Source: Parasporobacterium sp. | GTDB lineage: Bacteria; Bacillota; Clostridia; Lachnospirales; Lachnospiraceae | NCBI GenBank assembly: GCA_017459985.1 | Contig: JAFUBX010000030.1 | Span: 62,001-126,000 of the forward strand | Length of the DNA: 64,000 bases | Direction of reading: 5' to 3' | Part shown: positions 34,937 to 39,653 of the stretch, one piece after another | How positions within the stretch are numbered: position 1 is the first letter of the stretch | Layout of the letters: every line of letters starts with the position of its first letter | The notes under the pieces: model-generated | What the model was told of the DNA's origin: nothing | Seen by the model: only the letters and a program-made list of their open reading frames with translations | Databases searched by the model: none | Program-made: the position numbers and the translations under genes

Positions 34937-35365
34937 ATGAAAACATTTATGGCTAATCCGGCAACCATTGAGAGAAAATGGTATGTAGTAGATGCTACAG
35001 GACTTACATTAGGTCGTCTCTCAAGTGAGGTTGCTAAAATTTTGCGCGGAAAAAACAAACCGATCTTTACCCCTCACGAAGACACCGGTGATTATGTCAT
35101 CATCGTCAACGCTGAGAAGATCGCTGTGACCGGCAAAAAGCTGAACCAGAAGATCTACTACAATCATTCCGATTATGTCGGAGGAATGAGAGAGACAGAT
35201 CTCAAGACCATGCTGGCTAAGAAGCCGGAAAGAGTTATTGAACTTGCAGTTAAGGGTATGCTTCCGAAGGGACCTCTCGGACGTTCCATGATCAGGAAAC
35301 TGTTCGTTTACGCAGGACCGGAACATAAGCATCAGGCTCAGAAGCCGGAAGCATTATCATTATAA
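34937..35365 (+). CDS. rplM: Ribosomal protein L13
   Basis: 142 aa behind TAGGAGG. Standard L13 with [40 protein letters not shown], and the C-terminal [12 protein letters not shown]. Part of the large subunit; co-transcribed with rpsI. Codon use is typical of highly expressed genes. Confidence 0.97.
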
Positions 35366-35385
35366 GCTGAAAGGAGGAAATAACA

Positions 35386-35772
35386 ATGGCAAAATTCTAT
35401 GGAACCGGAAGAAGAAAAAAGAGTATCGCCAGAGTCTATCTGGAGCCGGGCAAAGGCACGATCACGATCAATAAGAGATCCCTGGATGAGTATTTTGGTC
35501 TGGAAACCCTGAAAGTTATCGTTTGCCAGCCTCTTGAAGCTGTGAACGCTGCTGATAAGTATGATGTTACCGTGACTGTCAGAGGCGGCGGATTTACAGG
35601 CCAGGCAGGTGCTGTAAGACACGGAATCGCCAGAGCACTCTGCGAAGCAGATGCTGACAACCGTCCTGCTCTTAAGAAAGCCGGATATCTGACAAGAGAT
35701 CCCCGTATGAAAGAAAGAAAGAAATACGGTCTCAAAGGTGCACGTAGAGCTCCTCAGTTCAGCAAGAGATAG
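35386..35772 (+). CDS. rpsI: Ribosomal protein S9
   Basis: 128 aa behind AAAGGAGG. N-terminal [19 protein letters not shown] and the conserved basic C-terminal tail RRAPQFSKR that reaches the P-site tRNA. Second gene of the L13-S9 operon, followed by a terminator. Confidence 0.97.
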
Positions 35773-35927: not shown

Positions 35928-36734
35928 TCATAGATAATAATTCCGGATAATCAGATCAAATTCAGCGGTTGAAAACGGCCGCGTGCTGGTTTCAGCCGTG
36001 ATGATCAGTTTTTCTCCCGGGAAGATTCCATTTTGCGCGTAAGTATAGATTTTCCCGATCGCATTATTACAATAAGAAGGATTATCCATCATTCCGAAGT
36101 GTTCCTGAATATATTCCCGTCGGGTTCGTTTATTCAATATCTGAAAATCGGCTCTCCAGACCCGTCCGTCCCTCAGTTTCAAAGGATATTCGTATCTGTA
36201 CGGAATACTTTTCTGATAAAGTGTGTCAGCGATAATCTTTTCTGATTTTGAACGAACCCGTTCTCCCTTCATCGTATAATACTCCGGATCATCTGGTCTG
36301 AAACTGCCCGGAAGATATGCGACGGATTCCCATTGCCGGATAAAAACGTCGTCTGGAATAATTCCGGGGATTACTAATTTTCTCCTTTCCGGAGACAGCT
36401 TCTGATAGCGGTCTTTAAGAAGGCCCGGATCGTAGACTTTCAGAAACCGTTCAATGTTTTTGAATTGCTTTTTTGCATCTTGAAGCAGTGCCAGATTATA
36501 ATCCTTCTGTGCCAGTCTTCCGGCCAGTTCTGCTTTGCTTTCCTTCAGATAGGTCCTGATTTTCTGTCCGGTTGTCTTGTCCGCTGTATATTGATAATAA
36601 TGTACTTTTCCTTTTACCGTGCTGATCTGAAGAGATCCATCCGGCACCTGACCTAACTGGGTCTGCAGCCTTCGGATCAGTTTTCCGAGATCATTTTGTT
36701 CTGCTTTTAATTGATAGATTATTGTTTCCTGCAT
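35928..36734 (-). CDS. PD-(D/E)XK-like protein next to the 26-bp array
   Basis: 268 aa starting at 36734 behind CAGGAGG. An N-terminal coiled coil (LIRRLQTQLGQ, KAELAGRLAQKDYNLALLQD) is followed by a restriction-like fold: Glu165 in VRSKSEKIIADTLYQ, the segment YRYEYPLKLRDGRVWRADF (Asp196), EHFGMMDN (Glu211) and Lys228. The usual PDF is RADF here, so catalysis is not assured. Family seen scattered in Clostridia with unknown role. It is monocistronic, and its promoter region overlaps the first repeat of the array 36760..37055. Confidence 0.65.
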   Translation of the reverse strand: MQETIIYQLKAEQNDLGKLIRRLQTQLGQVPDGSLQISTVKGKVHYYQYTADKTTGQKIRTYLKESKAELAGRLAQKDYNLALLQDAKKQFKNIERFLKVYDPGLLKDRYQKLSPERRKLVIPGIIPDDVFIRQWESVAYLPGSFRPDDPEYYTMKGERVRSKSEKIIADTLYQKSIPYRYEYPLKLRDGRVWRADFQILNKRTRREYIQEHFGMMDNPSYCNNAIGKIYTYAQNGIFPGEKLIITAETSTRPFSTAEFDLIIRNYYL

Positions 36735-36759: not shown

Positions 36760-37055
36760 TCATGTATAAAGTGGTGGCTTCTGGTTTTTACATGACGAAA
36801 ATTCCGGCAGTATCATGTAAATAATAACAATTGAAAGATTTACATGATAAATTTCTCTGTCTTATCATGTAAAAACAGGTGATTGAATTATTTACATGAC
36901 GAAAAATTGAAAATAATCATGCAAAATTAGTAATCAAACAAATATACATGATGAATAAATAAAAACGGTCATGTAAATCTGGAAGATCACGAAAATTACA
37001 TGATGGAAATCGAAAAATCATCATGTAAAAATAACGATCTTTACAAATTACATGA
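36760..37055. repeat. Array of 12 alternating 9-bp inverted repeats, 26-bp period
   Basis: TCATGTAAA and TTTACATGA alternate strictly, starting at 36760, 36787, 36813, 36839, 36865, 36891, 36917, 36943, 36969, 36995, 37021 and 37047. All intervals are 26 bp except the first (27). Seven copies are perfect and five have one mismatch. The 17-bp spacers are all different. Fills the divergent intergenic region between the nuclease-like gene and an ABC operon. Confidence 0.95.
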
Positions 37056-37200: not shown

Positions 37201-37229
37201 TTGACTTTACTACGGTAGAATGGTAGCAT
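37201..37229 (+). promoter_or_regulatory. Promoter of the amino-acid ABC operon
   Basis: TTGACT (37201..37206), 17 bp, TAGCAT (37224..37229). It overlaps an upstream in-frame ATG at 37228, which therefore cannot be the translation start. Confidence 0.55.
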
Positions 37230-37263
37230 GCTAAAAGAATCTGATTATAAAGTGAGGTCATCT

Positions 37264-38085
37264 ATGAAATCTAAAAAATTACTTTCCGTTATTGTTGGTA
37301 TTATGTGTATGGTCCTTCTTGCAGGTGCTGTCAGCGTGTATGCAGGAGAGGCTGCTTCTGATCTGGCAGCGATCCAGGACAAGGGCGTGCTGGTCGTCGG
37401 AATTACCGATTTTGCACCGATGGATTATAAGGATGAGAATGGGAACTGGATCGGATTTGATGCAGAACTTGCAGAAGCATTTGCAGAGATTATCGGGGTG
37501 GACGTGGAGTTCCAGGAGATTGACTGGGACAACAAGATCCTTGAGCTGAATGCCGGATCCGTAGACTGTATCTGGAACGGTATGACTCTGACAGAGGAAG
37601 TTGCAGAGGCAATGGAATGCACCGGAACCTATGCGCTCAATGCACAGGTCGTAGTAATGAAGGCAGATAAGCTGGCCGATTATGCGGATGCAGAGAGCAT
37701 GGCGGATCTCAGCTTTGCTGTGGAAGCCGGTTCTGCCGGAGAAGCTGTTGCGCAGGAAGCCGGATTTGAGATCAACTCTGTACAGAATCAGGCAGCTGCT
37801 CTGATGGAAGTGGCAGCCGGAACTTCTGATGCCTGCGTGATCGACAAGACCATGGCAGATGCCATGACCGGAGAAGGCACAAGCTATGCAGATCTGGGCT
37901 ACGCTGTTTCTCTTTCCAGCGAAGAGTATGTGGTCGGATTCCGGAAAGGATCCGATGCCGCCGCTGCTCTGGATGAGAAGATCCAGGAATGGATCAAGGA
38001 TGGTACGATGGCAGAGATCTCCGCAAAGTATGATAACGCCGTATCCATCGCAGAAGCCAGAGACGCCGCTGAAGAAGCTGAATAA
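37264..38085 (+). CDS. Amino-acid ABC transporter binding protein
   Basis: 273 aa from ATG at 37264 (GTGAGG upstream). Signal peptide LLSVIVGIMCMVLLAGAVSV then YAGEA, without a lipobox Cys at the cut. SBP_bac_3 fold: GVLVVGITDFAPMDYKDENG, GFDAELAEAFAEIIGVDVEF, DCIWNGMTLTEE. Polar amino acid uptake with the permease and ATPase downstream; substrate cannot be read from sequence. Confidence 0.88.
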   Translation: MKSKKLLSVIVGIMCMVLLAGAVSVYAGEAASDLAAIQDKGVLVVGITDFAPMDYKDENGNWIGFDAELAEAFAEIIGVDVEFQEIDWDNKILELNAGSVDCIWNGMTLTEEVAEAMECTGTYALNAQVVVMKADKLADYADAESMADLSFAVEAGSAGEAVAQEAGFEINSVQNQAAALMEVAAGTSDACVIDKTMADAMTGEGTSYADLGYAVSLSSEEYVVGFRKGSDAAAALDEKIQEWIKDGTMAEISAKYDNAVSIAEARDAAEEAE

Positions 38086-38132
38086 GCCTTAAAGCTTACA
38101 AAGTCGGCGAAAGACCAATATATCATGAAAAC

Positions 38133-38168
38133 TTGAAGTGAGCCGAGCTTATGCCCGGCTCACTTCAA
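38133..38168 (+). repeat. Strong intercistronic hairpin
   Basis: A 13-bp perfect stem TTGAAGTGAGCCG/CGGCTCACTTCAA with a 10-nt loop, no U-run. Likely partial terminator or 3' stabiliser giving excess binding protein. Confidence 0.65.
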
Positions 38169-38187
38169 TGACAGACAGGATCGGAAT

Positions 38188-38847
38188 ATGTTTGCAAATG
38201 TATTGAGCGCCCTTTCTATCGGGTTTTTGAAAACACTGGAAATCTTTGGTTTGACACTGGTCGGAGCAATCCCTCTGGGGCTTTTGATCTGCCTGGGCGC
38301 AATGACCAGGATCCGCGTCGTGAAATATGTGATCCGGTTTCTCGTCTGGGTGATCCGGGGAACGCCACTGATGCTTCAGCTTCTGGTGATCTATTACGGA
38401 CCGGGTCTGATCATCGGTGATAACTGGTGGGGCAGCGGGGAGCATGGACGGTTCATTGCCACCATTGTCGCGTTTATCATCAATTACGCCTGTTATTTCT
38501 CGGAGATCTTCCGGGGCGGCATTCAGTCGATTCCCGTGGGGCAGCAGGAAGCCGGCTTCGTGCTGGGTTTGACGAAAGCCCAGATCTTCTTCCGGATCAC
38601 CCTGCTTCAGGTGGTGAAACGGATCGTTCCTCCCATGTCCAATGAGATCATCACGCTGGTCAAAGATACCTCTCTGTCCAGGATCATTGCGCTGCAGGAG
38701 CTGATCTGGGCGGGGCAGTCTTTTATGAAAAGCGCCGGAATCATCTGGCCGCTGTTCTTTACCGGGATCTATTATCTGGCATTCAGCGGAATCTTAACGG
38801 TCGTATTTAACCGGATCGAGAAAAAACTGGAGTTTTTCAGAGTCTGA
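38188..38847 (+). CDS. Amino-acid ABC transporter permease
   Basis: 219 aa, five or so spans of the HisM/GlnP type. EAA loop region seen at [20 protein letters not shown] and [29 protein letters not shown] near the N-terminal third is characteristic. Pairs with the GlnQ-type ATPase 18 bp downstream. Confidence 0.88.
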
Positions 38848-38864
38848 TCGATGGGGGCAAGGTT

Positions 38865-39653
38865 ATGTCATTACTGGAAGTAAACAATCTGAAAAAAAGT
38901 TTCGGGAAAAACACGGTGCTGAAGGGCGTCAGCTTTTCCCTGGATAAAGGACAGACATTGTCCGTGATCGGCCCTTCCGGAGGCGGAAAGACCACGATCT
39001 TGCGATGTCTGAATTTTCTGGAGATCCCGGATGAGGGAACGGTGAAGGTGGGAGACGAGATCATTTTTGACGCGGCACAGACAGCCCGGCTGTCTGACCG
39101 GGAGATCCGGAAAAACCGTCTGCACTTCGGCCTGGTATTCCAGGATTTCAACCTGTTTCCGCAGTATACCGCTCTGGGAAATATTATGCTGGCGCCGAAA
39201 CTGCAGGCAGCCTCCAGTCCAGAGATGTCAAGGGAGAAGAACATTCCCCCGGAACGGATCGAGGAATACTGTCTGGAAATTTTGGACAGGGTAGGGCTGG
39301 CGGATAAAAAGGATCATTATCCGCATCAGCTGTCCGGCGGTCAGAAGCAGCGGGTTGCCATTGCCAGAGCCATGGCGATGAATCCGGAGATCCTGTTCTT
39401 TGATGAACCAACCAGCGCGCTGGATCCGGAACTGACCGGAGAAGTGCTGAAGGTGATCCGTCGGCTTTCGGAAGAAAAGATGACCATGATCATTGTGACC
39501 CATGAAATGGGATTTGCGAAAAATGTTTCCGACCAGATTATTTTCATGGATAACGGACTGATCGCGGAGCAGGGAACGCCGGAGGAAGTGTTTAATCATC
39601 CGAAGAATCCGAGAACCCTCGAATTCCTGCGAGGTTATACCGGACTGGAATAA
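38865..39653 (+). CDS. Amino-acid ABC transporter ATPase
   Basis: 262 aa. Walker [11 protein letters not shown]-loop [10 protein letters not shown], signature QLSGGQKQR, Walker [15 protein letters not shown], His switch IVTHEMGFA. GlnQ/HisP class. A 20-residue insertion around [15 protein letters not shown] precedes the signature region, longer than in typical GlnQ. Confidence 0.9.

Follow-up and report, generated by a model that had tools for sequence, protein, structure and literature searches.

A small PD-(D/E)XK-like protein encoded in a Parasporobacterium genome is accompanied by a phased array of alternating inverted half-sites. Many members of its family sit beside alternating arrays, in what looks like a previously undescribed protein-plus-repeat system. 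The reading that we favor, at a probability of roughly 0.58, is that this PD-(D/E)XK-like nuclease would bind, cut and disperse the arrays, in the manner of a REPtron (see below) but with an unrelated nuclease.

An alternating array next to a PD-(D/E)XK-like gene

The window (the whole stretch of DNA that was analysed, 64,000 nt) comes from a genome of 3.53 Mb in 131 contigs, referred to here as G000. Positions 36760..37055 hold 12 half-sites of the form TTTACATGA/TCATGTAAA in strict alternation (the array as a whole having no strand), with one step of 27 bp followed by ten of 26 bp. A motif scan placed the minus-strand half-sites, numbers 1, 3, 5, 7, 9 and 11, at 36760..36768, 36813..36821, 36865..36873, 36917..36925, 36969..36977 and 37021..37029, and the plus-strand half-sites, numbers 2, 4, 6, 8, 10 and 12, at 36787..36795, 36839..36847, 36891..36899, 36943..36951, 36995..37003 and 37047..37055. 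Seven of the 12 are perfect, five (numbers 1, 7, 8, 10 and 12) have a single change, and CATG is kept in all. This layout, first described in the initial annotation, was recovered by the rescan and by a general detector of alternating inverted chains: of the 212 overlapping 600-bp tiles into which the window was cut, three gave chains of at least four half-sites, all three being this array, and no such chain was found elsewhere in the 64,000 nt. What makes the array striking is the order and spacing of the half-sites and not the number of matches; plain matches to TTTACATGA in the window numbered 22 against 15.1 expected, a count reached in 7 of 100 shuffles. An origin by chance or low complexity was rejected, given the three tiles out of 212 and the fact that none of 100 dinucleotide-shuffled upstream regions of homologues (see below) reached four half-sites. 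The initial annotation also held that all spacers differ. This is true of the window array but not of some others, where spacers are almost repeated from unit to unit, as in the array near C111:58.7k.

The array lies 25 bases from the start codon of the gene for a 268-aa protein (35928..36734, minus strand) and thus probably overlaps the promoter of that gene. On the array's other side, after 172 bases, start genes (37228-39653) that we take to be an amino-acid ABC uptake operon (binding protein, permease and ATPase).

The 268-aa protein gene, recognized as an ORF and by the profile of its relatives, is the presumed cognate of the array. Its C-terminal nuclease-like domain spans about residues 153-268 (35928..36278, minus strand). 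Across 100 homologues, residues S162, E165, D196 and G214 are invariant, and H212 (99/100), E182 (98/100) and E211 (97/100, Asp in three) are nearly so, suggesting that a catalytically active nuclease is probably being kept. The conserved acidic residues stand in PD-(D/E)XK order, with E-H where the usual motif has Lys; the name PD-(D/E)XK-like is taken from this residue pattern and from general knowledge of the fold. The window protein matched no Pfam family (E up to 1) and no NCBIfam family, and its PHROGs matches were weak at best (E 0.033 and above). The profile search for solved relatives returned none, its best match (E 0.092) being to a coiled-coil stretch. A structure model from a two-row alignment was poor (mean pLDDT 49.8). 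In this model the N-terminal 100 residues (36435..36734, minus strand) form, at low confidence (block pLDDT 55-79), a helix, three strands and a long helix, and our guess is that this region could be the part that reads DNA. A phage origin was ruled against, since neither an array nor a relative was found in viral contigs.

Arrays beside homologues across the Lachnospiraceae

A family profile built from 24 sequences found matches in 120 of 397 genomes of the family at E 1e-30 and in 13 of 398 genomes of the phylum at E 1e-15, those outside the family being to the nuclease part alone. The homologue set comprises the matches listed and fetched from the family-wide search, several of the compared genomes being incomplete: 200 loci yielded 122 distinct hits, of which 107 were full-length and 100 had at least 300 bp upstream, seven having been dropped for short flanks. 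With detector thresholds of our own choice, and near-palindromic motifs left out, upstream chains of at least four half-sites were present at 63 of the 100 homologues and of at least six at 49, the maximum being 21; at 37 there was no upstream array of at least four. These arrays share the build of the window array and have different motifs. The initial annotation had suggested that protein and array may form one unit, and had proposed looking for alternating repeats upstream of homologues; the counts just given bear the suggestion out.

Downstream chains were found at 11 of 98 homologues (at least four half-sites) and at 5 of 98 (at least six). At three of these five (L091, L195 and L199, or 3 of 98) the upstream side also had at least six half-sites, with the same motif. 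Counting either side, 51 of the 100 homologues had an array of at least six. The rate dropped with divergence from the profile, from 17 of the 20 top scorers to 6 of the last 20 (at least six half-sites upstream). Five members of the set belong to G000, and the window gene alone among them has an array; no upstream array of at least four half-sites was found at the other four full-length paralogues, which are divergent (C91, C21, C127:101k and C126; L045-L048). The possibility that the gene is a bystander, raised by the distance of most arrays from eight homologue matches, was dropped in view of the homologues' upstream arrays.

Motif and protein change together

Motif similarity in the 49 arrays of at least six half-sites followed protein identity (Mantel test with Spearman correlation, 0.187; permutation sd 0.043; none of 2000 permutations as high). 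The relationship comes mainly from pairs above 50% protein identity, where mean motif similarity was 0.516 against 0.31-0.35 below. The window gene has as neighbors two genes (34937..35772, plus strand) that, from their sequences, we take to be rplM and rpsI and regard as conserved context outside the system. Among 123 loci tested, some duplicate and many with short flanks, rpsI and a homologue shared one fetched stretch in 10 genomes from 9 genera, counting that of the window. Eight rpsI-linked members are in the table of 100, and five of the eight have at least six half-sites, each with a different motif, suggesting that the motif can change with the unit staying where it is. No separate clade is formed by these linked members, whose common ancestor spans 53 of 107 tips.

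Same-facing half-sites lie whole helical turns apart

The distance between same-facing half-sites in the 49 arrays was 51-54 bp (28 arrays), 61-64 bp (14) or 73-75 bp (7), that is, five, six or seven turns of 10.5 bp. No array fell at 55-60 or 65-72 bp, the detector having permitted sums from 36 to 90 bp. The best-fit period was 10.50 bp (R 0.872; Rayleigh p about 7e-17), and R never exceeded 0.454 in 3000 draws of 49 from a uniform null. With 34 representatives below 50% identity, R was 0.862 at 10.5 bp (best fit 10.65 bp); with 16 below 40%, the best fit was 10.85 bp. Three homologues whose proteins are 66-68% identical (L152, L154 and L171) have the TGATGC motif in common and are set at six or seven turns, so a unit appears to gain or lose a full turn at a time. 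Because of this whole-turn quantisation, the array is very probably read on double-stranded DNA by a protein, with same-facing sites read from one face. The helical phasing that the initial annotation had proposed from the window array thus extends to the larger set.

Dispersed arrays in the same genome

G000 contains 12 TTTACATGA arrays of 7 to 14 half-sites each, with 132 half-sites in total at the cut-off used: the window's own and eleven further ones, on contigs C12, C21, C34, C61, C89, C96, C97, C100, C111 (two, including the window's), C121 and C127. The eleven are placed between unrelated genes, and the view that the array belongs to the window gene only was dropped on their account. 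Five (C61, C96, C97, C121 and C127) are mutual copies, 80 to 96% identical by blastn; their cores are 94.3% and their spacers 79.6% identical, a comparison that is partly circular because core columns were picked by motif. Among 13 other genomes of the genus, the motif was matched in one (G006), which has four arrays, one of them directly upstream of that genome's best homologue of the window gene (48 to 49% identical). Exact long TTTACATGA pairs were found in one of 299 family genomes, namely G000 itself; of 14 genomes of the genus, 2 had shorter pairs, each with a gene beside the motif.

A further G000 paralogue (C85:9.1k), whose partial match leaves it outside the set of 100, has a four-site array of TCATGCG sites upstream, and the genome has 49 TCATGCG pairs at 24 places. 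The 20 further stretches that were fetched have 2 to 14 half-sites with steps mostly of 28 and 24, and at seven of these places the inverted pair is solitary. Between places, similarity is higher for the inner 21-bp segments (75%) than for the linkers (64%; L251 left out), as if the inverted pair were the spreading unit, and two inner segments are identical at four places each, on separate contigs. Seven of 18 placed TCATGCG arrays are inside small predicted ORFs, which may not be genes. TCATGCG pairs also occur at the edges of some TTTACATGA arrays, most clearly at C61 and C121 (L036 and L041), as if mixed arrays served, or were passed between, two paralogues. At L247 and L251 (G000:C12:14.4k and C37:6.7k), the array and 45 bp on each side are identical, reflecting either a segmental duplication or an assembly duplicate. 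Three G000 contigs (C24, C97 and C121; L249, L259 and L041) stop within an array or soon after one, so array counts from short-read assemblies of genomes like this may be too low.

A third family in G000 has the half-site TGCCGAAAA/TTTTCGGCA with steps of 28 and 33 (61 bp), as at L258:1748-1960, and is also present at L247, L253, L262, L263, L265 and L266. Its arrays are often near TCATGCG sites and are bounded by ACCGCAATGC. This family is an orphan: none of the G000 paralogues examined is a homologue gene with the motif.

Dispersed arrays in other genomes

TACGGTT pairs were found in 7 of 12 genomes tested. Five of the six genomes with a TACGG-type homologue were positive (G107 had no pair). 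Four genomes with another or an unknown homologue motif gave one lone pair, in G078, which may be due to chance. Of two genus mates, G775 was positive and G771 (a genus mate of G034) had no pair. The pairs occur at 11 places in G065 and 14 in G775, forming chains of at least four half-sites at 10 and 12, respectively. In G244, a seven-turn family (TTAGCCT) is present at four places, one adjoining its gene. Dispersed copies of a gene's own repeat were thus seen in G000, G006, the TACGGTT genomes and G244, the orphan TGCCGAAAA family excepted. The initial annotation had regarded arrays beside unrelated genes, together with homologues lacking arrays, as speaking against a gene-array unit. Many such arrays exist, but the tested families co-occur with a homologue of the same motif, the exceptions being the orphan family and the lone G078 pair. 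Two of the arrays follow tRNA genes: the dispersed G065:C1 array comes 98 bp after a tRNA-Thr gene (L202:1629-1702), and the gene-linked G244:C13 array about 180 bp after a tRNA-Pro gene (L107:926-1000).

Comparison of G065 with G775 gave four G065 arrays with matching flanks on both sides (L204, L205, L209 and L211). In two of them the size difference amounts to one and two whole units, or 53 and 104 bp, respectively; another of the four, the array linked to the gene, is the same size in both genomes. A fifth G065 array, the only place tested for an empty site, corresponds to a shrunken relic in G775 and not to a clean empty site; five other places (L203, L206, L207, L208 and L210) have no counterpart among the fetched G775 loci. 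Certain arrays thus hold their position between two species, an observation that also fits a fixed cellular function.

Comparison with known repeat systems

Bacterial MITEs and insertion sequences include short dispersed intergenic repeats without genes, and in this the arrays resemble them; the arrays differ in that their number of units varies and no terminal repeats delimit an element of fixed extent. A closer likeness is found in the RAYT genes. According to the available sections of two accounts, RAYT (TnpA-REP) together with REP or BIME repeats forms a "REPtron", a nuclease gene with its own repeat adjoining (PMC2817692, PMC8266576). Within the same sections, the shared features are intergenic copies of the gene's repeat, regularly spaced repeats of alternating orientation (in BIMEs), co-divergence of repeat and protein (here the Mantel correlation above), orthologous genes that hold their place while repeats change, and several families per genome (PMC2817692, PMC8266576). 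The statement in the initial annotation that no system with such a layout has been described was too strong in the light of what is available of PMC2817692, RAYT with REP/BIME being much alike and its enzyme unrelated.

The differences are equally specific. The RAYT enzyme is an HUH Y1 transposase (PF01797), whereas the window protein is PD-(D/E)XK-like and, having no Pfam match, has no Y1_Tnp domain. The REP repeat of a RAYT is a palindrome with a GTAG or CGTC head, and paired changes keep its hairpin. Here none of the three motifs that were read closely (TTTACATGA, TCATGCG and TACGGTT) is a palindrome, the spacing comes in multiples of a 10.5-bp turn, and paired changes in neighboring half-sites are rare in two of three families (see below). 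RAYT genes are described, in the part of PMC2817692 that was available, as always flanked on both sides by inverted repeats; here an upstream array is much commoner than arrays on the two sides together. As in the REPINs of PMC3116915, as far as its available sections describe them, an inverted pair is the smallest dispersed unit (compare the lone TCATGCG pairs); unlike them, the arrays have no RAYT link, are commonly long and tandem, and in the two larger families do not support a hairpin. A search of the open-access PubMed Central literature with few terms gave, among the matches listed, no account of a PD-(D/E)XK protein with such arrays. The best reading is by analogy: the system would be a PD-(D/E)XK counterpart of the REPtron and, by its enzyme, not a member.

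A proposed mechanism and its alternatives

Six features have their basis in the sequences themselves: the gene-array link, the co-divergence of motif and protein, the helical quantisation, the dispersal of resident motifs, the whole-unit insertions or deletions in two arrays and the kept catalytic residues. From them we infer binding by the window protein, its assembly into an oligomer, cutting and a role in dispersal. In the reading that we favor, the nuclease is a small PD-(D/E)XK-like protein that has been resident in the chromosome for a long time, together with its own phased array. Its copies would bind the half-sites cooperatively in double-stranded DNA, with about two and a half turns between neighbors and five whole turns (six or seven in other arrays) between copies that face the same way. 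The ordered oligomer along the array would cover the promoter beside the gene, and the protein would in this way limit itself. The bound nuclease could then nick or cut arrays carrying its motif; repair or copying of the cut arrays would change their size by whole units and seed arrays in trans at other intergenic places, as protein and motif drift together.

We put at even odds the broader proposition that this is a second, independently evolved repeat-dispersal system, in which a domesticated PD-(D/E)XK nuclease, assembled as an ordered oligomer, reads phased arrays in double-stranded DNA and spreads, trims and renews them across the chromosome, protein and motif having kept in lockstep for as long as the bacterial family has existed. 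If so, REP-like repeat systems would have arisen at least twice from unrelated nucleases. A large bacterial family would carry a protein-DNA recognition code readable from genomes alone, with dozens of natural protein-motif pairs, each site printed beside its gene. The reasons for the long persistence of such repeats in genomes would become testable outside the RAYT lineage, and the whole-turn quantisation makes an unusual, testable prediction on how the protein would assemble on DNA.

The alternative that survives best, although we consider it unlikely, is that the protein is an autorepressor and a chromosome or gene regulator acting at the dispersed arrays, the nuclease serving otherwise and ordinary recombination spreading the arrays. 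This would account for everything but the recent spread. It agrees with an array 25 bases from a start codon, with arrays that hold the same places in two species, and with a phasing suited to cooperative binding. The identical 21-bp inner segments on four separate contigs each point to recent spread, however, and the invariant catalytic residues do not favor a purely regulatory protein. The arrays are mostly in tandem or convergent intergenic places and not at divergent promoters (12 of 15 for TTTACATGA and 20 of 24 for TACGGTT, after setting aside stretches with fewer than four sites, at an edge or in an ORF), a weak argument as gene calls were crude, gene-linked arrays were included and there is no orientation baseline.

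Improbable in our estimation is a defence function, in which the arrays, at the gene and at other places, would mark self or keep the nuclease inactive and the nuclease would attack invading DNA. Residues 153-265 match the C-terminal part of proteins of a PADLOC candidate-defence family, PDC-S68 (E 8.9e-25), and the gene is multi-copy and patchily distributed. Against these points stand the place by rpsI in 10 genomes of 9 genera, which is not expected for a defence island, and the viral contigs, which contained neither array nor relative; the dispersal of the arrays would also be left unexplained.

It is more improbable still that the arrays are those of a different enzyme or DNA-binding protein, such as a RAYT-type Y1 transposase, with the PD-(D/E)XK gene a bystander. 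Y1_Tnp genes are present in three of six array-bearing genomes, but no match was found in the other three (G775, G034 and G816; listed completeness 100, 92 and 81), and the six fetched Y1 loci, of nine matches, showed scattered exact cores and no chain. A Y1 transposase was rejected as the array maker on these two grounds; moreover, the motif follows the PD-(D/E)XK protein.

That the array acts as RNA or single-stranded hairpins, as a CRISPR- or TIGR-like guide or processing array, is very improbable. Adjacent half-sites are able to pair, and the changes in one family described below are in its favor, but the idea is opposed by the 10.5-bp quantisation, by spacers that in several arrays are drifting tandem copies rather than diverse inserts, and by the rarity of mirrored changes in two larger sets. 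The initial annotation had judged the array not to be CRISPR-like in repeat size, and a CRISPR-like nature is indeed not supported: CRISPR- and TIGR-type guide arrays have diverse guide spacers, whereas here half-sites alternate in inverted orientation and, in several arrays, the same spacers return from unit to unit and from place to place. A known RNA was also discarded as the identity of the array, no Rfam family coming near its cut-off (best E 0.35, 23.9 bits against 55). The suggestion of an RNA hairpin in the initial annotation finds no support in the two larger families, where a changed base was seldom mirrored in the neighboring inverted half-site (5 of 86 for TTTACATGA and 8 of 66 for TACGGTT) and was more commonly shared with the next-but-one half-site (33 and 20, respectively). 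In the GTCATGCG family, 6 of 14 deviations were mirrored in the neighbor and none was shared with the next-but-one, as a hairpin would require, and a hairpin step may operate in that family.
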